From Hallerella porci (lineage in GTDB: Bacteria > Fibrobacterota > Fibrobacteria > Fibrobacterales > Fibrobacteraceae): 46,258 nucleotides of DNA. Made by a program: the position numbers and the translations under genes. The stretch is taken from NCBI RefSeq assembly GCF_003148885.1, contig NZ_QGHD01000019.1, positions 1 to 46,258 on the forward strand, in the 5' to 3' direction. Below are positions 2,604-15,586 of this stretch, piece by piece. Each line of letters starts with the position of its first letter. The first letter of the stretch is position 1. Under the pieces are notes generated by a model that had not been told where the DNA came from, ran no database searches, and saw only the letters and a program-made list of their open reading frames with translations.

Positions 2604-3794
2604 ATGTCGAATTTTCGTTCTATCGATGAATTGATTGGTGCGCTTTCGCGCGAAAAGCAACTTTTAAAGGAAATGTTTGCCAAACGAAAATTGCTTTCGT
2701 TTCGGATGGATTTTGCGGAACAACTTGTCGATTACAAAAAGGAACGCATTCATTACTTGGTCGATTACGGAGTCATTCGCGACAACGGAAATTTTTTAGA
2801 ACTCGAAGATATTTATCTCAAATTTTTTGAAGAAGTTTTAGAAGTCAACGAAGAAATTAACGTTCAAAGTGTCAAAGCAAATATTGACCATTTAAAAGAA
2901 ACGATTGAATATTATCTTCAAGAAAATAATGAAAATCAAAAGTATAATTATTTACGCGAAGTCCGTCGCAGTTTGAAAAATATCGCGCTCAACACCAAAC
3001 GAAATGTAATCGACTTAAAGCGCAATGTTGATGACACTTATAAAAACGAGCCGAATTACAAAATCAAAAAATCAAAGCTCAAACATCTCGATGAAAAGCG
3101 CGACGGCATTAAACTCATGATTGTCGAAGCGGAAAAATTACTAGAAAAAGAAACTCTCTTTTTTACATCGGCGATGGATTTGAATATGCGCTTGGTCGTG
3201 GATGATTTGCAAGCGGACTTGAATGAATCGAGTCATAATTTGCTTGAAATCGAACGGCAAATTATCGATTATTTGAATTTGATTGATCATCAAAACTCGC
3301 TACTCAAAAAAATTCGCCTTATCAAATATTTTCGCGACCAGCAAGTTCTAGAAACGAATACCGATGTCAAAAATATTTTGCAAAAAACAAATGGCGTCTG
3401 GATGGAAAAATTGCCCGCGTATCGCATCAAACTTTCGCTAGAAAAATTGCGCGGCGACGAAGGCCTTGCCATTCTTCAAGAAGTTCGTCACAAAAATCAT
3501 CTCAAGGGAACAGGAAAAGGAAAATGCGCCGAAGCTTTGACCGCTGAAGATTTGAATGTCGAAAGTTTTGTCCAACAGATGGTCGATCACGTCGAACTAA
3601 AAAATGCATTCGCTGCGCAAAGTAGCGATTTATTCCACTTTATTATGAATTATAAATTTCCGTTCGAAATCGATTTAGAAGGAAAGCTCGTTTTGTTTTG
3701 TCAGGTGGCGAGTGGCTTTTACGATGAACTTGAATTTTCGGACAAGTACGAACAAATGGCTGGCTTTGAATATCCTTTGATTTATGCGAAATAG
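2604..3794 (+). CDS. jetA: Wadjet kleisin-like subunit JetA (MksF-like)
   Basis: First gene of the four-gene Wadjet block. In characterised Wadjet systems JetA is the kleisin-like subunit that bridges the SMC dimer JetC and holds JetB; the complex extrudes DNA loops and restricts small circular DNA such as plasmids. The 396-aa product is soluble and mostly helical: an N-terminal part (about 1-100) with winged-helix character (KKERIHYLVDYGVIRDNG), a long charged coiled-coil middle (about 110-260) and a compact C-terminal part (about 290-396) with a second winged-helix-like stretch. Sequence similarity to JetA families is weak, so the name rests mainly on order and size in the operon. The ATG at 2604 lacks an SD. 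jetB follows after 12 bases, with its SD just past the jetA stop. Confidence 0.8.
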   Translation: MSNFRSIDELIGALSREKQLLKEMFAKRKLLSFRMDFAEQLVDYKKERIHYLVDYGVIRDNGNFLELEDIYLKFFEEVLEVNEEINVQSVKANIDHLKETIEYYLQENNENQKYNYLREVRRSLKNIALNTKRNVIDLKRNVDDTYKNEPNYKIKKSKLKHLDEKRDGIKLMIVEAEKLLEKETLFFTSAMDLNMRLVVDDLQADLNESSHNLLEIERQIIDYLNLIDHQNSLLKKIRLIKYFRDQQVLETNTDVKNILQKTNGVWMEKLPAYRIKLSLEKLRGDEGLAILQEVRHKNHLKGTGKGKCAEALTAEDLNVESFVQQMVDHVELKNAFAAQSSDLFHFIMNYKFPFEIDLEGKLVLFCQVASGFYDELEFSDKYEQMAGFEYPLIYAK

Positions 3795-3806
3795 TTGGGA
3801 GAAATG

Positions 3807-4358
3807 ATGTTAAAATCGAGCAAAGAAATTTTTGAAATTTTGAGCAAAGGCGCTTTTATTTCGGTCAATAGTACAGACGAATTGAATCGCAAATATTACG
3901 ATTTAATCGAAGACGATTTGGACGCTTATCGCGAATATTATGAAGGCGTCGGTTTTATTTTGGAAAGCGGAAACGGCTACTTTTATTTTTCGCGCACGGA
4001 ACAGAAAGTTTCGATGGGTGAAAAACTTTCTCGCTTTTGTGATTGGATTGATCGCTTGGATTTTTTGAAAACTTTTAATTCTTCTTTTGAATCGGGATAT
4101 GTTTTTACAAAATCAAAAATTTTGGAACGCATTTCTTGCGATTTAGAATTAAAAGAAAAAGCGCCGAAACTTTATAGCGATAAAAAATCTCACGAAGAAA
4201 TTGTCGATAAGTTAATCGATGATTTATCGAAAATGGGATTTATCGAAGTTGAAAATGAAGTGGACGGAAGTTTTCGCGTGACTGCTGCGTTTCATTATCT
4301 CGAAGAAATGGTGAACTGCTTAAATGTGGTGGAGGGTGCCGATGCGTTACCTGAATAA
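3807..4358 (+). CDS. jetB: Wadjet MukE-like subunit JetB (MksE-like)
   Basis: The 183-aa acidic product is in the place and size range of JetB/MksE/MukE, the dimeric winged-helix 'KITE' subunit that binds the kleisin. Helical segments at the N-terminus (SSKEIFEILSKGAFIS) and a later helix-turn-helix-like part near residues 130-165 (IVDKLIDDLSKMGFIEV) followed by a beta-wing (GSFRVTAAF) fit a winged helix. I chose ATG 3807 because GGGAG ends 5 nt upstream; ATG 3804 in the same frame is an alternative. The 3' end overlaps jetC by 17 bp, which implies translational coupling and fixed subunit ratios. The identification relies on context plus fold hints. Confidence 0.8.
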   Translation: MLKSSKEIFEILSKGAFISVNSTDELNRKYYDLIEDDLDAYREYYEGVGFILESGNGYFYFSRTEQKVSMGEKLSRFCDWIDRLDFLKTFNSSFESGYVFTKSKILERISCDLELKEKAPKLYSDKKSHEEIVDKLIDDLSKMGFIEVENEVDGSFRVTAAFHYLEEMVNCLNVVEGADALPE

Positions 4359-7300
4359 AATTGTCTTTATCAACAGTGCGCATGTGCGTTATGCCGAAAT
4401 AAACTTGAACGGAAATGTTCACCTGATTGGAACGCAAGGAGTTGGCAAAAGTACTTTGCTGCGTGCGCTCCTTTTCTTTTACAATGCGGACAAACAAAAA
4501 CTCGGCATTCCGAAAGAAAAGAAATCGTTTGACGATTTTTATTTTGAAAAAGACAATTCCTACATCGTTTACGAAGTGGTGCGAGACGAATCCGCTTATT
4601 GTGTTTTGGTGAGCAAATCTTCGGGGCGTGCGAGTTTTCATTTTATCGATGCACCATATCATCGCGATTTTATCGTGAACGAAAATGGCGAAGTTCCCAC
4701 GGAAACAAAAAATATTCGCGCTCGATTAAACGAAATTTATCATCGTCCGATTTACATGAGTTCAACAGTAGATCGCTACGAAACTTTCCGCGATATCATT
4801 TACGGCAACCATCAAAATGTGAAAAAGGAATTCTATAAATTTTCACTGGCCGAAAGTTCTCGCTATCAAAATATTCCGCGCAGCATTCAGAACGTTTTCT
4901 TGAATTCAAAACTCGATGCGGATTTTATCAAGGATACGATTATTCAATCGATGGATGGCGAAAGCGCTTTTATCGATTTACGATATTTTAGAAATCAAGT
5001 TTCGGAATTTGAACAAGAATATAGCGATATTGGGAAATGGTTTGAAAAAAATAAAAAGGGCGAATGCGTTGTGCGTATTGAAGCCGAGCGCGTTGTGAAT
5101 GTTTACCATGCGTTATTGCTCTTGAAAAAAAATATTGAAACAAGCAGTAAGGAACTCAATTACGCTTATCGAATTACGAAGGAACAACTGCCGGCGATTT
5201 CTAGTGAAATTGAAAAACAGGAACAGGCGTTAAATACGACGATGCGTTTGTTGCGTGAAGAAAATGACAAGTTTATGCGCGAACGCGACGGCCTTAAAAA
5301 ATCGCTCACATTGACCGATGAAAAGTTGAAAAATTGCCGCGAAAAAAGTGCTTATTATGTTTCGCAAAATATTGAAGAAGTTTTGAAGAAACAAGAACGC
5401 GAAAGCGTTTTAAAAATGGAAAAAGAAAATCAAGAAGAACGCAAACGATTGCTTACGCGAGAATTTGAAAGCGTTGCTGAAAAATACGAACGATTGATTC
5501 AACAGGTAAATGATAAACTCGGCGAATTTAAGCAAGTGCAACAGGCGCGCATTATCGAATCGGAATCGAAATTGAATGCAGAAAAGCAAAATCGATTTGC
5601 TGAATTTGAAAAATCAAAGAATGCGGCTTCTGTGCGATTTGATTCTGAAATTGAAACGGCAAATAATTTGAAACAGAATTTGCAAAACGAAAAAACGGAC
5701 TACGAAAAATCGCTGATAGAATTGAAGTATTTTCATCCGTTTGAAAAAGAAATGCAATCTTGCAAAACGCAGATGGAAAATTTGCGCGCATCGGAAAATT
5801 CAGACAAATTAAAACAGGCGAATGCTGCTCGTGAACTTGCGAAAGTGCAGTCGCAGCGCGATGCCGAAATTGCAGACTGTAAATCGAATTTTGAAAAGGA
5901 AAATCATAAGCTTGCAAGTGTTCGTGAAAAAATTGCTTTGGCACTTGAAAAACTCGACAATCTTTTAGAAAAGCAAAAAGGTTCGCTTTACGAATGGCTT
6001 TCGACAAATAAAGTCGGCTGGGAAAATTCGATTGGAAAAATCATCGATGAAGAAACGGTTCTTTATCATAGCGGGCTTTCGCCCGAGTTAACAACGGAAG
6101 CGGGCGAGTCGCTGTTTGGTGTGAAACTGAATTTAGAAGAACTTCCGAATCGAATTCGCACTCCCGAAGATTTGCAAAACGAACATCGTGAGCTCGAAAA
6201 ATCGCTTGCTGAAAATTCTAACGCAGTCCAATCTTTGCAGGACGATTTAGAAAAACGCATCGCGTCGGTGGATCGCAGCTACGGCACAAAAATCAAAGCG
6301 CTTCAAGAAGAAATTCGCAATTTAGAAATTGACTTGGTGCAGATTCCTTCTAAAATCAAACGCACAAGTAATGAACTGGAAAATTTCAAACGCAAAGATG
6401 CCGAAGAAATTGAAAAACGCCGAAATGAAATTCAGCAAAAAGTGACGGAAGTCTCGCAGAAAATTCTTGCGGCAGAAGAAAATATCGCACGTATCCGCGA
6501 TGCCAAAAAACGGGAAATTTCAAAAATTGAAAAATCGTATCGCGATGACATTACCGCTTTTGAAAAGGCGACAAGCGATTTTAAAATTCAAGTGAAGGCT
6601 GAAATTTTAGACAAAGAAAATCGTGCAAAAGAAGAATGCGATGCAATTCAAAAGCAAAAAGAAAATGAACTCGAAAGTAAAAATGTTGATGTGAATGAAT
6701 TGCGCAAATGCGAATCGGAAATTTTGCGCTTGACCGCAGAATTAAATGATATTGAATCGCATCGCGAACTCGTGACGCTTTATCGCCGCGATAAAGCAGA
6801 GCTTTTTGATCGCGAAGCAGAATTTAAAGAAGAAAAGCGCACGCTGGAATCTAAGTTGAATGATTTGCAAGGCAAATTTAATTCGCGTCGCGAAAAATTG
6901 AACGCTCAAAAATTCGAACAGGAAACTTCTTTAAACCAGTCAAACGAACGCAAAAAATCGATGGAAAATGATGTCTCGGAAACCGAGAAATTAGCGCTGT
7001 CTTCGCTGTGCCCTGAAAACATTAAGGACGCAGGCGAAACGCCTTGCACCAAAAATTGTTCCGAAGTCATTCGAGAATTGACCTCAGCTGTTATTGATTC
7101 TTTGAATCGTAAAAAAGATTTAGAAAAATCAATCAACAAATTCCGCGATAATTTTTCACCGCGTAATACATTTAAATTTCCGTCGGATTTGAATTCGGAA
7201 TATTCTTACATCGCTTTTGCAGAAAACTTGAATGATTTTTTGCTGAACAATAAAATCAACGATTACCGCGAACGCACAAGCGGGCGCTACACCGAAATTC

Positions 7301-8016
7301 TCACGCGCATCGCGCGAGAAGTCGGTAACATGACCAAGCAAAAACAGGAAGTTGAAAAAATCGTAAGCGGCGTCAATCGCGATTTCAATGAAAAAAATTT
7401 TGCTGGCGTCATCAAGAGCATTGCGCTTCGCACCGAAGAAAGCAACGATAAATTGATGAGGCTTTTGGAATCGATTCAAACGTTCAATGCAGAAAATCAG
7501 TACAAGATGGGCGAAATCAATTTGTTTAGCGATGCCGGGACCGAAGAAGCGAATCGCAAAGCGGTGGAATTGCTGCTGCAATTTGTGCGCATTTTAAAAG
7601 ACGAACCGAACCGCGATCAGCTCAAACTTTCGGATGCGTTCCGCTTGCAATTCCGCGTTCAAGAAAACGATAACGATACCGGTTGGATTGATAAAATTTC
7701 AAATGTCGGCTCCGAAGGCACGGACGTTTTGGTAAAAGCGATGGTGAACATCATGCTCATCAATGTTTTCAAAACGCAAATTTCCAGGAAGTTTGGCGAC
7801 TTTAAATTGCATTGCATGATGGATGAAATCGGGCGACTTCACCCGACCAATGCGAACGGCATTTTGAAATTTGCAAACGCAAGAAACATTTATTTGGTAA
7901 ATGGTTCGCCTACAACGCAGAGCGTTTCGGAATATCGCTACACGTATCTTTTGGAAAAAAATGCAAAGTCCGAAACCGTTGTGCGCCCGCTTATGACAAG
8001 GATTTCTGCGACATGA
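4342..8016 (+). CDS. jetC: Wadjet SMC/MukB-like ATPase JetC (MksB-like)
   Basis: The 1224-aa product is an SMC-type ATPase: P-loop GTQGVGKST at residues 30-38, two long charged coiled coils (about 250-545 and 610-1000), a small globular hinge-like stretch at about 547-605 (SLYEWLSTNKVGWENS to SLFGVKLNL), an ABC-signature-like GSEGTD at 1123-1128 and Walker B HCMMDE at 1157-1162 followed by a His/Ser-bearing tail. This is the motor that extrudes plasmid DNA in Wadjet. ATG 4342 was chosen because GGAGG lies 6 nt upstream; an in-frame ATG at 4324 has no such site. Three cysteines at 890, 902 and 906 (C-x11-C-x3-C) in the C-terminal half are unusual in this Cys-poor protein. It overlaps jetB by 17 bp and jetD by 4 bp. 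Confidence 0.92.
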   Translation: MRYLNKIVFINSAHVRYAEINLNGNVHLIGTQGVGKSTLLRALLFFYNADKQKLGIPKEKKSFDDFYFEKDNSYIVYEVVRDESAYCVLVSKSSGRASFHFIDAPYHRDFIVNENGEVPTETKNIRARLNEIYHRPIYMSSTVDRYETFRDIIYGNHQNVKKEFYKFSLAESSRYQNIPRSIQNVFLNSKLDADFIKDTIIQSMDGESAFIDLRYFRNQVSEFEQEYSDIGKWFEKNKKGECVVRIEAERVVNVYHALLLLKKNIETSSKELNYAYRITKEQLPAISSEIEKQEQALNTTMRLLREENDKFMRERDGLKKSLTLTDEKLKNCREKSAYYVSQNIEEVLKKQERESVLKMEKENQEERKRLLTREFESVAEKYERLIQQVNDKLGEFKQVQQARIIESESKLNAEKQNRFAEFEKSKNAASVRFDSEIETANNLKQNLQNEKTDYEKSLIELKYFHPFEKEMQSCKTQMENLRASENSDKLKQANAARELAKVQSQRDAEIADCKSNFEKENHKLASVREKIALALEKLDNLLEKQKGSLYEWLSTNKVGWENSIGKIIDEETVLYHSGLSPELTTEAGESLFGVKLNLEELPNRIRTPEDLQNEHRELEKSLAENSNAVQSLQDDLEKRIASVDRSYGTKIKALQEEIRNLEIDLVQIPSKIKRTSNELENFKRKDAEEIEKRRNEIQQKVTEVSQKILAAEENIARIRDAKKREISKIEKSYRDDITAFEKATSDFKIQVKAEILDKENRAKEECDAIQKQKENELESKNVDVNELRKCESEILRLTAELNDIESHRELVTLYRRDKAELFDREAEFKEEKRTLESKLNDLQGKFNSRREKLNAQKFEQETSLNQSNERKKSMENDVSETEKLALSSLCPENIKDAGETPCTKNCSEVIRELTSAVIDSLNRKKDLEKSINKFRDNFSPRNTFKFPSDLNSEYSYIAFAENLNDFLLNNKINDYRERTSGRYTEILTRIAREVGNMTKQKQEVEKIVSGVNRDFNEKNFAGVIKSIALRTEESNDKLMRLLESIQTFNAENQYKMGEINLFSDAGTEEANRKAVELLLQFVRILKDEPNRDQLKLSDAFRLQFRVQENDNDTGWIDKISNVGSEGTDVLVKAMVNIMLINVFKTQISRKFGDFKLHCMMDEIGRLHPTNANGILKFANARNIYLVNGSPTTQSVSEYRYTYLLEKNAKSETVVRPLMTRISAT

Positions 8017-8897
8017 ATGGCGAATTTAAAATCACCGAAGCTTTGCTTGAAAAAATAAAATTTCTTTTGTGCGGTGAAAAGCTAAACGCCAGCGAATGTA
8101 AAAATGAAATTTTTCAAGAAATGACTCGAGAAGGATTTCTTGTTCAAGTGAAAAATGGCCGCGGACTGATTTACTTTGCTCCCGATAAAAAAGCGATGCA
8201 GGAATTTTTAATTTCCAAAGACGACGCATTTCGAGGCTTAAATTTATCGAACGAAAAGAAAATTTTAAGAGCGGATTTGGCGCGCACTACCGGGAATTCT
8301 AAAATTCAAAAAGTGCGCAGCTGCATCGGCTTTCTCGTCAATTCTTACGAACCGATCAAAGCGACTTTAAACGCAAATTCTTTTGTCATCCATCCTGTCG
8401 AAGGAACATTTTTATTTATCGCCGATATTGAAAATTTTAAGTTGCCCGAAAACGTCGTTGTCGTAGGCGTAGAAAACATGGAAAATTTTCGTTATGTCGC
8501 ACGACAAAAAATGATCTTTGAAGAATTGCGAAATTCCATGCGAAAAGAATTGAATCTCGAAAATATTCAACTTCTTTTTGTTTCGCGTTATCCGCAAACT
8601 CTCGATTTAATCAAATGGCTCACAAAAATTCCTAATCGCTACGTTCATTTCGGCGATTTAGACCTTGCTGGAATTCATATTTATCTGACCGAATTCTTCG
8701 CAAAAATTAAAGAGCGCGCGAGCTTTTTCATTCCGCAAGATGCTGAAATTCGCATTGCAAACGGAAGCCTTGAACGCTACGATAATCAAGTCAAACGCTT
8801 TGAAAAGATGGCTGTAAACGATAAACGCGTCGAAAGTCTTGTCGCTTTAATCAAGAAATATCACAAAGGCTACGATCAAGAAGGGTATATTGAGTAG
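8013..8897 (+). CDS. jetD: Wadjet nuclease JetD (Toprim-containing, MksG-like)
   Basis: JetD is the Toprim nuclease that cuts the DNA trapped by the JetABC motor. The 294-aa product has an N-terminal helical/winged region (1-140, DUF3322-like position) and a C-terminal Toprim fold (about 147-240): the conserved Glu is E154 in VVVGVENMENF and the acidic pair is D215/D217 in HFGDLDLAGIHIY. The C-terminal YDQEGYIE ending is typical of the family. It is shorter than the ~390-aa E. coli type I protein. The ATG overlaps the jetC stop (ATGA), so translation is coupled. All catalytic positions that I can recognise are intact, so the locus looks functional. Confidence 0.88.
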   Translation: MNGEFKITEALLEKIKFLLCGEKLNASECKNEIFQEMTREGFLVQVKNGRGLIYFAPDKKAMQEFLISKDDAFRGLNLSNEKKILRADLARTTGNSKIQKVRSCIGFLVNSYEPIKATLNANSFVIHPVEGTFLFIADIENFKLPENVVVVGVENMENFRYVARQKMIFEELRNSMRKELNLENIQLLFVSRYPQTLDLIKWLTKIPNRYVHFGDLDLAGIHIYLTEFFAKIKERASFFIPQDAEIRIANGSLERYDNQVKRFEKMAVNDKRVESLVALIKKYHKGYDQEGYIE

Positions 8898-8941: not shown

Positions 8942-9730
8942 ATGTCAATTCAAGAACCTGATCAATCTGTTTGGGACCGTTTTTGGGCCCGGAAAAAAGA
9001 CCTTTCCAAAGTTTATCCTGCGTCGCCGACGATTTTGAAGACGATTTATAAACATTTTCCGAATGTGCAGGGAATGAAAATTCTCGAAGTCGGTCCAGGC
9101 TCGGGCCGCGATAGCGCGGACTTGGCAAAGCACGGCGCCGATGTTTACGTTCTTGATTTCTCGGCAGAAAGTTTGAAAACGGTCGAAGCGCTCCGCATCC
9201 GTGAAAACTTAGAAGAAAATTTGCATTGTATCCGCGGGGACGCTTTTAAGTCGCCATTCCCGGACGGGACATTTGACTTGGTCTTTCATCAAGGATTAGC
9301 GGAACATTTCGTCAATCCGAATCCGCTGATTGCAGAAAATTTCCGCATTGTCAAACCGGGTGGTTATATCCTTTGCGATGTGCCGCAGACTTATCATTTA
9401 TACACGGTCGTCAAGCACATTTTAATCGCGATGAAGAAATGGTTCGCCGGTTGGGAAACGCAATTTTCCATTAACGATTTGCGGAAACTTTTGAAAACCG
9501 CAGGCTTCAATTTGAAATACGAATACGGCGATTGGATGCGCCCGAATTTCATTTATCGCACACTCCGCGAAGCTTGTTTCAAAGTGAATGTGGAACTTCC
9601 GAAATATCCGTTCCAAGGTTCTGCTTATCAAAAAGCAAAAGATGCGTTCTTAGATGCCTTTGACCGCGTCCCGCTTGCGCGTTATACGCAGCTTTCGATT
9701 GGAATCCTCGCTCAAAAGCCGAAGGGATGA
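8942..9730 (+). CDS. Class I SAM-dependent methyltransferase
   Basis: The 262-aa product has a Rossmann methyltransferase core: motif I ILEVGPGSGRDSA at residues 48-60, an acidic strand end VYVLDFS (motif II), GDAFKSPFPDGTFDLVF (motif III/IV) and a post-motif IVKPGGYILCDVP. The substrate is not evident; the C-terminal 100 residues with aromatic and basic positions may bind it. It overlaps the next gene, a flippase-like membrane protein, by 4 bp (ATGA), so a lipid or glycolipid intermediate is a reasonable guess. There is no SD; TATTTT at 8929-8934 ends 7 nt before the ATG, suggesting a leaderless transcript independent of the Wadjet operon. Confidence 0.8.
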   Translation: MSIQEPDQSVWDRFWARKKDLSKVYPASPTILKTIYKHFPNVQGMKILEVGPGSGRDSADLAKHGADVYVLDFSAESLKTVEALRIRENLEENLHCIRGDAFKSPFPDGTFDLVFHQGLAEHFVNPNPLIAENFRIVKPGGYILCDVPQTYHLYTVVKHILIAMKKWFAGWETQFSINDLRKLLKTAGFNLKYEYGDWMRPNFIYRTLREACFKVNVELPKYPFQGSAYQKAKDAFLDAFDRVPLARYTQLSIGILAQKPKG

Positions 9731-10713
9731 ATAAATCTCTCAAATCATTTTTGATTTTTTGTCTCAAATTACTGGTGACTGCGGTTCCCTGTTATTTTGT
9801 GTACGATAAAATCGTGACGGCTCCCGGTTGGGATACCGGCGACATTTGGGATTTGTTTTCGGTGCATTCAATTGCGCCGCTCTTCATCGCACTTTTCTGC
9901 TTGGGACTTTCAAATTTCACAGGCTGCTTGCAGTGGAAATTGCTTTTAGAAAAACAGAATGTGCATCTCGGTTATTGGCATTTGGTGAAGCTTTATTTCG
10001 TCGGGCTTTTCTTCAATAATTTTATGCCCGGAAATGTCGGCGGCGATGTGAAGAAAGTTTACGACATCCGCATGCAAGGTTCGCAAAAAACCGTCGGCGG
10101 CGGATTAACGGCGACATTTTTTGATCGTCTTTTCGGACTTTTCTTTTTAAATATTCTAGCGCTTGCAGTGGGATTTCTCTTCTTTATCCGCGATCCAGAG
10201 CAGCGACTTTTTTTGCTGCCGTCGCTTTGGGTTTTTCTCGGATTTTGCACTCTTTTCGCAGGACTTTTCAGCAAACGCATCGGGCGCATTCTCGCTTGGT
10301 TTTCGGGGAAAATTTTTCCGATGTCCGTGCAAATTCGGATTTTACATTTCCAAGAACGCTTTCAACTTTTCCGCGATTGGAAACTTTGGTTTCATATTAC
10401 AGCATTGTCCGCGGTAACGCAAAGCCTTCGCGTGGTGGTGCACTTTTTCTGCGGCATTGCGATTGGACTTTCGATCGATGTGTCGTGGTATTTTTTCTTC
10501 ATTCCGATGGTCGCTGTCATCAGCGCTTTACCGATTTCAATCGGCGGTTTTGGTCCGCGCGAACTTTTGGCGCAATCGCTTTTTGAACGCATCGGCGTCC
10601 CCGGCCTTTCTGCGGTCATGGTGCAGCTTTTAGCGTATTTAGTGAGCATGCTTGTCAGTCTATTCGGCGCAGGATTTTTCCTCGCTGAAAAAAGAAAAAC
10701 GACGGACAATTAA
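9727..10713 (+). CDS. Flippase-like membrane protein (LPG synthase TM / UPF0104 family)
   Basis: The 328-aa product has about 8 membrane helices and the family hallmarks FFNNFMPGNVGGDVKKVYD near residue 97 and SIGGFGPRELLAQSLF near residue 276. The family includes the transmembrane domain of MprF-type lysyl-phosphatidylglycerol synthases and AglD-like proteins, which flip or build lipid-linked compounds; no synthetase domain is present here. It is translationally coupled to the upstream methyltransferase. A C-terminal Lys-rich tail (EKRKTTDN) faces the cytoplasm by the positive-inside rule. Confidence 0.8.
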   Translation: MNKSLKSFLIFCLKLLVTAVPCYFVYDKIVTAPGWDTGDIWDLFSVHSIAPLFIALFCLGLSNFTGCLQWKLLLEKQNVHLGYWHLVKLYFVGLFFNNFMPGNVGGDVKKVYDIRMQGSQKTVGGGLTATFFDRLFGLFFLNILALAVGFLFFIRDPEQRLFLLPSLWVFLGFCTLFAGLFSKRIGRILAWFSGKIFPMSVQIRILHFQERFQLFRDWKLWFHITALSAVTQSLRVVVHFFCGIAIGLSIDVSWYFFFIPMVAVISALPISIGGFGPRELLAQSLFERIGVPGLSAVMVQLLAYLVSMLVSLFGAGFFLAEKRKTTDN

Positions 10714-10740
10714 TCATTCAATTAGTAAGGAAATGCAAGA

Positions 10741-10812
10741 GTTTAGAACTTAGATTTTAGAGCTTCGAGTTTGAAGTTTTCTCCGCTCAAAGTTCTCAGT
10801 TCTAAGTTCTCA
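10741..10812. repeat. Inverted repeat AGAACTTAGA ... TCTAAGTTCT
   Basis: A perfect 10-bp inverted repeat (10745-10754 and 10801-10810) sits in the gap between the flippase gene and the convergent helicase-PlsC frame. The same AGAACTTAGAG / TTAGAACTT wording recurs at 45109-45142, so this is a dispersed intergenic repeat that can also form a stem in transcripts from both sides. Confidence 0.5.
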
Positions 10813-10849
10813 AAAATTTGCAGCAAGCTTTATTATTTAACGATTCTGA

Positions 10850-13015
10850 TTATTTCGTCACGCTCGTAATTTTCTCATAAACGAGAGGAACGAGTTCTGT
10901 TTTCGGATTAATCGGATGATCGGCAGCGAGAAGTTTTACATCAATCGGTTCAAAAATCGTCGATTTGACCGCAACTTTATCGGTGTTCTTTCTCGATTCC
11001 CAAGTTTCGCGTGAACCTTGAATGTGCACCGGCAAAATAATCGCATTCAATTCGGCAGCGAGACGGAAAGCGCCGCTTTTGAAAGGTTTAACGACGCCAT
11101 CTTTGCTGCGCGTTCCTTCGGGGAAAACGAAAACGTGAACTGTTTCTTTGGAATTTTCGATGCGCTTTTTAATTTCGGCGCCGACCCGAGAATTTTGTCT
11201 GTCGATGAAAATGCAATGCAACGCTTTCATCCAAAAATTCAAAAACGGAATGTAAGTGAGTTCTTTCTTGGCGAAAAATCCAATCGTGCGACCGAGAGAA
11301 AGGAAGACAATCGGAATGTCAAAATAAGATTGATGATTGCCGACGACGAAAACGGGGCGGTTCCAATCGATGCGAGAAAGCGCGGACTGATTTTCGATGG
11401 TAATTTCGACGCGCAAAACGCGAAAGCAGAATTTTGTAAAACTTTGCACGCGCGATTCAACCCAAGCCGGAACAGATTTCCGCATAAACAGACTGCGAAA
11501 AAGAAACGGCGGCACTGCGCTAATCATATAAGCTAAAACCAGCAGCACCGAGCGGATTTTAAAAAGCGTAAGCGGCATAAAAGACTTCTCCTGAACCGGT
11601 TTATCGACGTAGCGCAAAAAACGGGACGGCTTAAATTTGGAAAGTTTTCCTTTCCAAAAACGCTTCTTACAATATAATAAAAAGAGCACTGCCTCTGCGC
11701 GGGTAACGCCCACGTAGAACAGACGTTTCTCTTCATCGAGTTGAAGCTTTTTTTGTTTTCGACTTCCTTCGGTTGCGCCCGGCGTGAGCTTTTCGGCGAG
11801 ACCTGCGTAAAAGACGACAGTATATTGGAGGCCTTTGGAACCATGAACGGTTTCGATGTGAACTCCCGAAACTTCGGGCTCGTCGCCTTCTGCTTCGCGG
11901 AAAACGGGAATGCAAAAATCGGCCAATGCTTCTTCGTAATAAAGCCGCTGCCGATTATAGCGGACAAGAATGGCGAAGTTTTGAAATTCCAAATCATAGG
12001 CTTCGCGGAGCTCGCGAATTTTCGCCACGATGCGGAGCATTTCTGTTTGCGGGTCATCGCTCACCCAAATTTCGGGCGGGCGATTTTCTAAAAAAATCGG
12101 TTTCGGTGAATTATTTCCTGCGCGTAAAGTTTTGCGGAGAAGTAACGGCTTTTCTTGAAAAATATTATTCGCCAAATTTAAGACTTGCGGAACGGAGCGA
12201 TAATTCCATTCCAATCGGAGTAATGTAGAATGCGGAAAATCTTTGCAAAAGCGGAAAACGTTTCCGATGTCTGCGCCGCGGAATCCGTAAATCGCTTGAT
12301 CGTCATCGCCGACCGCAAAAAGATTTTGATTTTCGCCGAGAATTGCACGGACAAGTAAATATTGCGATGGATTGATGTCTTGATATTCATCGACGAGCAC
12401 TTCTAAAAAACGCCCGCGGATTTCTTTTTGCACGCTAGCATTTTTTTGCAAAAGTTCTGTTGCGAGATAAATCAAATCTTCGAATACGATGTTTCCGGTT
12501 TGCAAAACGCCTTCGCGAATGCTTTTCAATTTTTGAGTTAATTTATGCGGAAGATTCGGGCTGAATAAATCATCGCGGGAAATCGCATTCGGAGAAATTT
12601 TCTTTTCGGCGAGAGCGCATGCGAAGCGTTCTTCTTCGGCGGTTCCCGGTTTGGGCGCCCGCAAAAATCCCGCAAATTCCCAGCCGAATTTTCCGTCAAA
12701 TTTTTCGCGTAAAATCGAATAGGCGAGTGAATGAAATGTGCTCAGACGAATGTCTGCGTCCGGGAAAAGTTTTTGAACGCGTTCCCGCATTTCTTGCGCT
12801 GCTTTCGCCGTGAACGTGAGCGCTAAAATGGATTCGGGCTTTGCGCCTTGTAAAACGCGCCATTGAATTCTCCGCGTTAAAACCGAAGTCTTTCCCGAGC
12901 CCGCCGCTGCTAAAATAAGAAGCGGACCGTCTTTCGCATGGTCGTAAAGAACGGCTGCTTTTTGGTCGCTGTTGAGTCCTTTCAAAATTTCTGCTTTCAT
13001 GTCTTCTGTTTGCAT
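10850..13015 (-). CDS. UvrD/Rep-type helicase joined in frame to PlsC acyltransferase
   Basis: One uninterrupted 721-codon frame encodes two enzymes. Residues 1-478 are an SF1A helicase: motif I AAAGSGKT (36-43), Ia LTFTAKAAQEM, Ib LSTFHSLAY, II VDEYQD (208-213), III GDDDQAIYGFRGA, IV EWNYRS, V ETVHGSKGLQ, VI RLFYVGVTRAE. It is compact: the 2B subdomain between motifs IV and V is strongly reduced compared with ~720-aa UvrD. Residues 480-721 are a 1-acyl-glycerol-3-phosphate acyltransferase: hydrophobic N-terminus, NHQSYFD (H561/D566), FPEGTRSKDG (631-640) and ILPVHIQGS. The start at 13015 has GGAG 5 nt upstream. A second strong SD lies before Met480, so PlsC may also be made alone. The joint is biochemically unexpected: a DNA helicase with a phospholipid synthesis enzyme. 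Confidence 0.85.
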   Translation of the reverse strand: MQTEDMKAEILKGLNSDQKAAVLYDHAKDGPLLILAAAGSGKTSVLTRRIQWRVLQGAKPESILALTFTAKAAQEMRERVQKLFPDADIRLSTFHSLAYSILREKFDGKFGWEFAGFLRAPKPGTAEEERFACALAEKKISPNAISRDDLFSPNLPHKLTQKLKSIREGVLQTGNIVFEDLIYLATELLQKNASVQKEIRGRFLEVLVDEYQDINPSQYLLVRAILGENQNLFAVGDDDQAIYGFRGADIGNVFRFCKDFPHSTLLRLEWNYRSVPQVLNLANNIFQEKPLLLRKTLRAGNNSPKPIFLENRPPEIWVSDDPQTEMLRIVAKIRELREAYDLEFQNFAILVRYNRQRLYYEEALADFCIPVFREAEGDEPEVSGVHIETVHGSKGLQYTVVFYAGLAEKLTPGATEGSRKQKKLQLDEEKRLFYVGVTRAEAVLFLLYCKKRFWKGKLSKFKPSRFLRYVDKPVQEKSFMPLTLFKIRSVLLVLAYMISAVPPFLFRSLFMRKSVPAWVESRVQSFTKFCFRVLRVEITIENQSALSRIDWNRPVFVVGNHQSYFDIPIVFLSLGRTIGFFAKKELTYIPFLNFWMKALHCIFIDRQNSRVGAEIKKRIENSKETVHVFVFPEGTRSKDGVVKPFKSGAFRLAAELNAIILPVHIQGSRETWESRKNTDKVAVKSTIFEPIDVKLLAADHPINPKTELVPLVYEKITSVTK
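11576..11592 (-). promoter_or_regulatory. plsC: Internal ribosome binding site for PlsC domain
   Basis: Read on the minus strand, AGGAG (11588-11592) stands 9 nt before ATG (11578), codon 480 of the helicase frame. Starting here gives a 242-aa protein, the normal length of PlsC, with its own hydrophobic N-terminus. No stop codon precedes it, so initiation here would produce a separate acyltransferase from the same frame in addition to, or instead of, the fusion. Confidence 0.65.
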
Positions 13016-13177
13016 GATTTCTCCAGATTAAAGAATTTCAAAAAGGCTCCCATTTGTTTAAAGACGCTTGAAACGCAAAAAATTTCCGAAAAGTAAACGG
13101 AATTTTACAAGATTAAGCCGAATTTACAGAAAATGTGAAATTTTTAAAGAAATTTTGAAAAATTTTAGCCTTTCCCC

Positions 13178-13206
13178 TTGACAGCGCAAAAAGAACTTTA
13201 TATATT
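13178..13206 (+). promoter_or_regulatory. Consensus sigma-70-type promoter
   Basis: TTGACA (13178-13183), a 17-bp spacer and TATATT (13201-13206) form the best promoter in the window. It would start transcription near 13213 and serve the small membrane protein gene, tRNA-Val and tRNA-Asp up to the terminator at 13631. Confidence 0.8.
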
Positions 13207-13250
13207 TGGGCTACCCTAACGGTGATAACACTCAGCAAGGTGATGAAGAA

Positions 13251-13436
13251 ATGAAAAAGAACATTCTTTTAGTCGCTCTCGGAACTTTGTTGGTAGTGAT
13301 CGGATTCATCTGTCTCGCTCAAGGGCCTGCAGAAAACCCTGTATCACTGACGGTCGCACCGATCATTCTGGTGATTGCTTACTTGGTTGTGATTCCGCTC
13401 GGAATCCTCTGGGGTGGTAAAAGTCAGAAGAAATAG
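13251..13436 (+). CDS. Small two-helix membrane protein (DUF3098-like)
   Basis: I place the start at ATG 13251 (61 aa, MKKNILLVALG...), with AAGG about 10 nt upstream; the 15 codons before it are upstream of a typical membrane start. Two hydrophobic helices (about 4-22 and 32-53) flank a short polar loop with NPVSLTVAP, ending in GGKSQKK. This layout resembles DUF3098-type small proteins of Bacteroidetes. Function unknown. Its stop codon TAG (13434-13436) directly touches the first base of tRNA-Val, so the message must be cut from the tRNA by RNase P. Confidence 0.75.
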   Translation: MKKNILLVALGTLLVVIGFICLAQGPAENPVSLTVAPIILVIAYLVVIPLGILWGGKSQKK

Positions 13437-13511
13437 GGGCGATTAGCTCAGTTGGTTCAGAGCAGCTGCCTTACAAGCAGCGGGTCAGCGGTTCGAATCC
13501 GTTATCGCCCA
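13437..13511 (+). tRNA. tRNA-Val (anticodon UAC)
   Basis: Acceptor arms GGGCGAT (13437-13443) and ATCGCCC (13504-13510) pair perfectly, D-arm GCTC...GAGC, anticodon stem GCTGC/GCAGC with loop CTTACAA giving anticodon TAC, and T-loop TTCGAAT. Discriminator is A13511; the CCA end is not encoded. It begins the base after the stop codon of the upstream gene. Confidence 0.96.
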
Positions 13512-13516
13512 GAAAC

Positions 13517-13592
13517 GGGGTGGTAGCTCAATTTTGGTTAGAGCATCGGCCTGTCACGCCGAAGGTTGCGAGTTCAAGCCTCGTCCGTCCCG
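13517..13592 (+). tRNA. tRNA-Asp (anticodon GUC)
   Basis: Acceptor arms GGGGTGG (13517-13523) and CCGTCCC (13585-13591) pair with two G-U pairs; TA at positions 8-9, D-stem GCTC/GAGC, anticodon loop CTGTCAC with anticodon GTC, T-stem GCGAG/CTCGT and loop TTCAAGC, discriminator G13592. CCA is not encoded. Only 5 nt separate it from tRNA-Val, so both are processed from one precursor. Confidence 0.96.
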
Positions 13593-13599
13593 CTTAAAA

Positions 13600-13631
13600 A
13601 ATCCTTTCTCTACGAGAAAGGATTTTTTTTT
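13600..13631 (+). terminator. Rho-independent terminator after tRNA-Asp
   Basis: Perfect 11-bp stem AATCCTTTCTC / GAGAAAGGATT with a TAC loop, followed by a run of T residues. It ends the small membrane protein-tRNA transcript. Confidence 0.9.
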
Positions 13632-14125
13632 GTATTCCATTCACAGTTGATATTTCCCATGAATAATGAGAGCGTTTGCTCGTTCCGTGCGGATTCAAAT
13701 TAACCGTTTTTAACTTTCGCATTTTGACCTGCATCTCAACTGTCCAATTTCCTGTTGCTTATTATCCATTTTTAATTGGCACTCATGCTTGCGGCTCGGT
13801 AATAAAAATAGAGAATTCGGCGCGCATCATTTAAACCTCTCATTCCTCATTTCTAATTTCTCATTTTTAAAAATTAAAGCTTACATTTTGGCAAGGGTTG
13901 TTTGAGAAAATATCTGTGGATAAATTGTTGCTTAAAATGTGATTTGCAAGGGGGATATGTGCGTATTGAAAAGATGATATTTTCCGAAAAATTGCGTATG
14001 CCCGAAATTTGCGAAATTTCGCCGTTTTTTGCCTTTTTTTAAGAAATTTCGCCATCTTCGCTAGGATTTATTAAATTCGCATTTGTGTTTTCGGGTAGGT
14101 AAAACTTCTTCCGTGATTGTGGGTC
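13632..14125. other. Intergenic region before dnaA, possible replication origin
   Basis: This 494-bp AT-rich stretch has no credible gene. It holds one perfect DnaA box TGTGGATAA (13915-13923, reverse of TTATCCACA), a weaker TTATCCATT (13762-13770), and GAAATTTCGCC twice exactly 30 bp apart (14013-14023, 14043-14053) with a related CGAAATTTGCG between 14003 and 14013. A 12-bp palindrome GATAACGTTATC follows at 14135-14146 inside dnaA. A dispersed pyrimidine repeat lies at 13840-13868. A single consensus box is thin evidence, and dnaN is not next to dnaA, so an origin or a dnaA autoregulatory site are both possible. Confidence 0.35.
13915..13923 (-). promoter_or_regulatory. Perfect DnaA box
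   Basis: TGTGGATAA is the exact reverse complement of the consensus TTATCCACA, about 200 bp before dnaA. It may mediate DnaA autoregulation or be part of an origin. Confidence 0.6.
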
Positions 14126-15586
14126 ATGTTGATAGATAACGTTATCCGTCTTCCGAATGCTTCGTTAAGCGTTTGGGACGATGTTCTTTCTTGCTTACGC
14201 AGTTCGCTTTCGGCGAACTCCTTTGATATGTGGTTTGGCAAAAAGAATTTGACGTTAGACGGTATTGAAGACGGCTGCGCCAACCTCATCGCTGCAAATG
14301 AATTGGTGGCTTCTTGGATTAACGGACAATTCCGCGATGCGATATTAAACGCTTTTAAGCAAGTCTTGCCCGAAGTTTCGGATTATAAAATTTCGGTTTC
14401 GAAAAACAGCAAAGCTTCGCAAGTGCAAGTCCTTTCGACAGAGCCCGAAGTGGTTGTGCATAAGCCACAAGTTCTCCGCGAAGAAAAAGAACAGCAGTCC
14501 GAAAACGCAGCGATTCTCAAATCATTTTATCCGAATTACAGCTTTGATACTTTCGTCGAAGGCGACAGCAATAAAATTGCGTTAGCGATGTGCCGTTCTA
14601 TCGCTGAAAATCCGTGCGAATCGGCGATGAATCCGTTCTTCCTATTCGGCGGTCCGGGAGTTGGGAAAACGCATTTGCTCCAATCGATTGGACGTTATGC
14701 GATTATGTATAAGACTGCGTCGTCGGTGGTTTATCGTACTTCGGAACAATTCCTCAAAGATTTTATGCGCACGCAAGATCCGAATGCATCTCGCTTGGAA
14801 CGGGCAGAAGCCACCGCAGAATTGCGCCATCTTTATGAAGATTCGCAGTTGCTTTTAATCGACGACATTCAAGTGCTCGCTGGGAAAGGTCGCGGCGCCA
14901 CGGAAAAGGCACTTTTTGATGTGCTCCAGAAACGGGTAGCTGCAAAACGGGAAACGGTTTTCTGCGCGGATCGTCGTCCTTCGGAAATTCCGAATCTTTA
15001 CGAAGGATTTATCCGATTTGACGGCAATAGCATTGCGGTAAATGTGCCCGATTTAATGACGCGCTTAAATATTTTGCGTCGGAAAGCGGCGAAATTGCAA
15101 ATCCCCGCCGAAGAAAGAGAACGCATTTTCCACTGGGTCGCAACGCATCAGCGGGGAAATGTCCGCGAAATTGAAGGGGTCGTGACGAAACTTCTCGCTT
15201 ATCACGATCTTTTGGGCGTCAATTTAACGCTAGAAACTTTCAAAGAACTTTGCGAATCGTGCAATGTGACGTCTCCCGCAGACATTGCGGATAAACCGAT
15301 TCCCACGATTTCATCGATCAAAGAAATCGTCGCGATGGCTTACCACATTTCGGTGGAATCGTTAAATGCCAATTCCCGCGTCAAATCGATTTCGGAACCG
15401 CGGAAAATTGCGATGTATTTTTGCCGCGAACTGACAAAAGAATCGCTTTTAAGCATCGGCTTTCAGTTTGGCGGTCGCAATTATTCAACGGTTATCGCAA
15501 GCATTAAAGCGGTCGAACGCGAAATGCAACATTCTCCCGAATTCGCTGAAGAAATCGAAAAATTAAGAGAAAAACTGGTAAATTAG
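14126..15586 (+). CDS. dnaA: Chromosomal replication initiator DnaA
   Basis: The product (486 aa from ATG 14126; a TTG nine bases earlier is less likely) has the four-domain DnaA layout. Domain I is at 1-80 (VWDDVLSCLRSSL...FDMWFGK), a variable linker follows, then the AAA+ domain with Walker A GGPGVGKT (175-182), Walker B LLLIDDIQVLAGKGR (D246/D247) and an IRF arginine near the position of the SRF finger. Domain IV carries SRVKSISEPRKIAMYFCREL and the DNA-binding signature GGRNYSTV, a variant of GGRDHTTV. The AAA+ lid and box VII are diverged from proteobacterial forms. DnaA opens the origin and also regulates genes. It is monocistronic here, followed by prepilin genes rather than dnaN. Confidence 0.93.
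   Translation: MLIDNVIRLPNASLSVWDDVLSCLRSSLSANSFDMWFGKKNLTLDGIEDGCANLIAANELVASWINGQFRDAILNAFKQVLPEVSDYKISVSKNSKASQVQVLSTEPEVVVHKPQVLREEKEQQSENAAILKSFYPNYSFDTFVEGDSNKIALAMCRSIAENPCESAMNPFFLFGGPGVGKTHLLQSIGRYAIMYKTASSVVYRTSEQFLKDFMRTQDPNASRLERAEATAELRHLYEDSQLLLIDDIQVLAGKGRGATEKALFDVLQKRVAAKRETVFCADRRPSEIPNLYEGFIRFDGNSIAVNVPDLMTRLNILRRKAAKLQIPAEERERIFHWVATHQRGNVREIEGVVTKLLAYHDLLGVNLTLETFKELCESCNVTSPADIADKPIPTISSIKEIVAMAYHISVESLNANSRVKSISEPRKIAMYFCRELTKESLLSIGFQFGGRNYSTVIASIKAVEREMQHSPEFAEEIEKLREKLVN

Follow-up and report, generated by a model that had tools for sequence, protein, structure and literature searches.

A compact DNA helicase fused in frame to a PlsC acyltransferase across a bacterial family, with a conserved internal start codon

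A single open frame on the minus strand of the window (the whole stretch of 46,258 nucleotides analysed here) encodes both a DNA helicase and a phospholipid-synthesis enzyme. What does the cell make from it: one bifunctional protein, a separate acyltransferase from a nested gene, or both? The first-pass annotation had described an SF1A helicase and a full PlsC in one uninterrupted frame, with AGGAG nine nucleotides before Met480, and had offered a true bifunctional protein and a nested in-frame plsC as the two options. Both observations hold on re-analysis. The frame of 721 codons contains all the motifs named there, and its protein matches three Pfam domains: UvrD-helicase (residues 14–261, 9e-60), UvrD_C (383–451, 4.5e-26) and Acyltransferase (538–665, 2.3e-27). 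Its features, in window coordinates, are the following.

13021–13024, minus strand: GGAG, ribosome-binding site of the full-length start
13013–13015, minus strand: ATG, full-length start
10850–13015, minus strand: fused open reading frame (helicase, linker and PlsC), 721 amino acids from the ATG, zero internal stops
11615–13015, minus strand: SF1A (UvrD/PcrA-type) helicase domain, residues 1–467, ending at the conserved SRFL, without 2B
11579–11614, minus strand: variable linker of 12 residues (468–479), of low model confidence, in frame and stop-free in relatives
11588–11592, minus strand: AGGAG, internal Shine-Dalgarno (SD) site for the PlsC start, nine bases before ATG480
11576–11578, minus strand: internal in-frame start codon Met480 (ATG)
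10853–11578, minus strand: PlsC (1-acyl-sn-glycerol-3-phosphate acyltransferase), residues 480–721, 242 amino acids if separate
11414–11572, minus strand: N-terminal hydrophobic two-helix segment of PlsC, residues 482–534, likely membrane anchor
11318–11335, minus strand: HX4D catalytic motif, H561 to D566
11108–11125, minus strand: FPEGTR motif, residues 631–636

The N-terminal part possesses the conserved 1A and 2A helicase motifs of the SF1A UvrD/PcrA/Rep group (Pfam PF00580 and PF13361) and lacks the 2B subdomain between the two 2A parts. It aligns with residues 6–377 and 546–642 of PcrA (local match 1.5e-60); PcrA residues 378–545, the 2B subdomain, have no counterpart, and residues 370 and 374 of the fused protein align with PcrA 377 and 546. 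The curated NCBIfam cut-offs for PcrA, UvrD and Rep are not reached (308 versus 911, 253 versus 1144 and 278 versus 951 bits, respectively). UvrD and PcrA come first in a Foldseek search with the structural model. The fold and all helicase motifs are shared with UvrD/PcrA/Rep (PDB 1pjr, 3lfu, 1uaa); in contrast to these enzymes, 2B is missing and a PlsC domain after SRFL replaces the usual C-terminal tail. The absence of 2B has a natural precedent in PcrA-short of Mycoplasma pneumoniae (MPN340), an SF1A helicase that is reported to be highly active without it (PMC3720892) but carries no acyltransferase fusion; in addition, Rep monomers are activated by deletion of 2B (PMC13238157). GajB and other defence helicases were considered as an identity and rejected, the match being one of general UvrD similarity.

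The helicase motifs GSGKT, DEYQD, GDDDQAIYGFRGAD, NYRS, SKGLQ and VTRAE, as well as the acyltransferase motifs NHxSxxD and FPEGTR, are invariant or nearly so across 17 diverse relatives, down to 45% identity. The C-terminal part has both the HX4D and FPEGTR motifs of PlsC 1-acylglycerol-3-phosphate O-acyltransferases. Residues 480–721 alone pass the TIGR00530 cut-off (105.4 versus 102.95 bits), and the whole fusion falls narrowly below it, at 102.6 bits. Altogether, the domain is a predicted lysophosphatidate acyltransferase (LPAAT), complete as judged from its sequence.

This part also matches the PlsC of Thermotoga maritima (5KYM, 1.5e-26), over the catalytic domain with HX4D and FPEGTR and over the hydrophobic N-terminal two-helix segment; the Thermotoga enzyme, however, stands alone. 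In 5KYM this pair of helices dips into the membrane (PMC6688108). Our structural model, built from an alignment of 12 rows, places helices at residues 482–510 and 512–534. Its mean pLDDT is 78 and its pTM 0.60, with the linker below 50; since parts of PlsC are, like the linker, modelled with low confidence, contact between the two domains cannot be judged from it. By analogy with 5KYM, it can fairly be inferred that the PlsC N-terminus would tether the helicase to the membrane.

The window's genome encodes five PF01553 proteins. Against TIGR00530, C6 reaches 68 and C4 reaches 64, and the Aas-type copy L002 gives no match at 1e-15. Among the acyltransferases scored in this genome (the fused copy, C6, C4 and L002; the remaining Aas-type copy is L004), the fused PlsC alone passes the cut-off, so lipid synthesis may require the fused gene. 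In genus g2, one genome encodes a further, stand-alone PlsC, which also clears the cut-off, at 103.2.

Could PlsC also be initiated on its own? In the family alignment, an in-frame ATG, GTG or TTG stands at the PlsC boundary in 51 of 51 different sequences: it occupies the boundary column as ATG in 46 sequences and as TTG and GTG in one each, and lies one codon later as ATG in two and as GTG in one. Other offsets up to 12 codons from the boundary have a start codon in 0 to 13 of the 51, except for offset +4, which falls in the hydrophobic helix and has one in 27. The SD pairing energy at the junction has a mean of −5.68 over 34 sequences, compared to −1.92 at 383 other internal ATGs. For the full-length start in the window it is −6.4, comparable to the internal site.

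The strength of the internal SD divides the family in two. The named carriers of the fusion are Fibrobacter genomes (loci L084–L086), and g2 is taken as Fibrobacter because our own sequence grouping places these loci with it. Outside g2 (25 sequences) the internal SD has an energy of −6.47 versus −3.43 (s.d. 0.34) for synonymous shuffles, and 0 of 400 shuffles reach the real value, which supports selection beyond coding need, also in the window's genus. In g2 (26 sequences) the corresponding values are −3.32 and −3.15, with 132 of 400 shuffles reaching the real one, that is, no excess over chance. From these comparisons, there is good support for internal initiation in the genera other than Fibrobacter, but in Fibrobacter it is doubtful: since the g2 site is no stronger than its amino acids give, free PlsC may not be made everywhere. 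Of the nested in-frame plsC proposed earlier, the start codon thus stands throughout the family, whereas the selected ribosome-binding site stands outside g2 and fails within it. We also considered that the internal SD is lost where a spare stand-alone PlsC exists; this fits g2 versus g1 and breaks down in g6, where a spare copy (in G034) coexists with a strong SD.

A different reading of these data, which we regard as unlikely, is that the fusion is the sole product, in which case the start codon would be a fossil of plsC, kept since methionine fits, and the SD-like bases would pause ribosomes and so aid folding of the membrane domain. Ribosome pausing at internal SD-like sites is a general proposal, and in g2 the methionine is indeed kept beside an SD not above coding expectation. 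Yet for pausing alone a start codon is superfluous, and where the methionine has been replaced, its position is taken by GTG or TTG, or else the next codon is a start codon. Outside g2, moreover, the SD persists as GGAG or AAAGGA across genera despite differing linker amino acids. Internal initiation, which we prefer there, is known from the bacterial genes CheA and InfB, where likewise a second in-frame start gives a shorter protein; here, in contrast, the short product would be a whole separate enzyme, with apparently its own ancestral start. N-terminal proteoforms are the topic of PMC11005335.

Such an ancestral arrangement may be seen in f3, a neighbouring family of the same class. All six g15 genomes of f3 carry the helicase and plsC genes side by side and in different frames. 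Five of them have an ATGA or GTGA overlap between the helicase stop and an in-frame plsC start; in the sixth, G049, a candidate plsC ATG lies 4 bases before the helicase stop. Four g13 genomes of the same family keep plsC, and the compact helicase was not found in them. In G037 and G038, relatives at the order level, the compact helicase occurs with no PlsC match beside it. Phylogenetic trees unite the fused helicases in a single clade (support 100/99) and, with moderate support, join the fused PlsCs to the neighbouring plsC of f3; several deep branches of the PlsC tree are weak. As the f3 genes are separate and overlap by ATGA or GTGA, the fusion probably arose once, in the family ancestor, from a translationally coupled helicase–plsC pair; the reverse order, fusion first and then a split, is less likely.

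In G037 (L036, 1562–4268, minus strand) the compact helicase occupies the C-terminal end of an open frame of 902 codons, counted stop to stop; the long part upstream of the helicase is probably a mere GC-rich open frame.

Within the family of the window, gut bacteria related to Fibrobacter, a family-wide search found the fused gene in 109 of 111 species-level genomes, from all 11 genera. The junction is a single open frame in all 108 genomes that cover it (11 of 11 genera); the G020 copy is cut off by the end of its contig ahead of the junction and was left out of this count. Stops or frameshifts between the domains, which the first-pass annotation had suggested looking for in relatives, are therefore absent inside the family; in f3, separate, ancestral-looking genes meet there. 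The two genomes without a match are G003, which has just a fragment at a contig edge, and G004, where both neighbouring genes are absent too; for the latter we rejected true gene loss in favour of a probable assembly gap. Three apparent interruptions also dissolved: the stop in G026, judged by its coordinates, lies where the frame ends at the C-terminus, and the frames of G010 and G030, of 703 and 705 amino acids, span both domains.

The linker, from the last helicase motif SRFL to the PlsC start, measures 10–16 codons in 34 aligned copies, and all its length changes are of whole codons. Its residues are poorly conserved and differ widely between copies. Over 406 linker codons there are 0 stops in frame versus 17 and 19 in the other two frames, counts that come from related sequences and are not independent events. 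That the residues vary while the frame stays open argues that frame continuity across the linker is selected. The earlier option of a true bifunctional protein gains from this at the level of a maintained fusion.

It is also conceivable, although we find it improbable, that the fusion is neutral: a stop would have been lost between coupled genes to no effect, PlsC and helicase acting independently. The apparently coupled pair from which the fusion would derive and the poor conservation of the linker sequence itself both agree with this. If so, however, stops and frameshifts in the linker should carry no cost; none is found in the 108 genomes, while the same linkers, read in the other two frames, contain 17 and 19 stops. 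Sequencing error or strain-specific loss of a stop codon has a practically negligible probability, refuted as it is by the 109 genomes, which include a single-contig assembly of the window's genus.

We now propose, as the likely reading, a bifunctional membrane-anchored protein accompanied by free PlsC from the internal start, both encoded by a gene that would derive from a single fusion of the coupled pair. One polypeptide would combine a 2B-less SF1A DNA helicase with a complete PlsC lysophosphatidate acyltransferase in place of the C-terminal tail, both activities presumably at work. The helicase would sit on the cytoplasmic side of the membrane, anchored by the two-helix segment of PlsC. 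With the plsC start and its ribosome-binding site retained, initiation at Met480 would yield PlsC alone, and this extra initiation would give more PlsC than helicase. Only tentatively can one go further and imagine that a working phospholipid-synthesis enzyme holds a constitutively active helicase without 2B at the membrane. Unwinding and membrane growth would then be coupled physically or by regulation, and the internal start would set the ratio of fused to free PlsC. That the tether serves replication or repair at the membrane would be a guess.

Some features of the neighbourhood deserve mention in their own right. Beside the fusion, at 14117–15586 on the plus strand, lies a gene for a full DnaA-like protein (Bac_DnaA, Bac_DnaA_C, DnaA_N); most searched family genomes have this protein and a second DnaA homologue of about 434–456 amino acids. 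In G000 and G005 the fused gene is inverted between an LPG_synthase_TM gene and the DnaA-like gene (9727–15586), and in G001, G002 and G014 it is co-oriented with its neighbours. An invertible element was considered and rejected, no long inverted repeats being found on the flanks of the fused gene. At 2604–8897 (plus strand), four consecutive open reading frames have a layout like that of Wadjet (JetABCD), the PADLOC matches to JetC and JetD being weak.

As the first-pass annotation had supposed, no standard family is known to pair the two activities: the helicase–PlsC architecture was not found in the NCBIfam matches or in the literature searched. Nor did fusions from other phyla appear among the best 80 loci of a genome-wide scan, where PlsC was present in three Fibrobacter loci only. 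Known fusion partners of PlsC belong to lipid metabolism. The Aas-type acyl-ACP-phospholipid acyltransferase (NF006386) and OlsF, both from NCBIfam, likewise join PlsC to another enzyme, but here the partner is a DNA helicase. Domain fusion, an internal in-frame start and a 2B-less helicase are each of a known kind; the pairing of a DNA helicase with PlsC has, as far as we found, not been described.

Compared across families, the locus forms a clear evolutionary series: two overlapping genes stand at one end and, at the other, a fusion that has kept the internal start. Single polypeptides rarely combine DNA metabolism with phospholipid synthesis, and the retention of this one across the family suggests that its helicase is required at the membrane. 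The fusion provides a concrete handle on the bacterial link between chromosome work and membrane growth.
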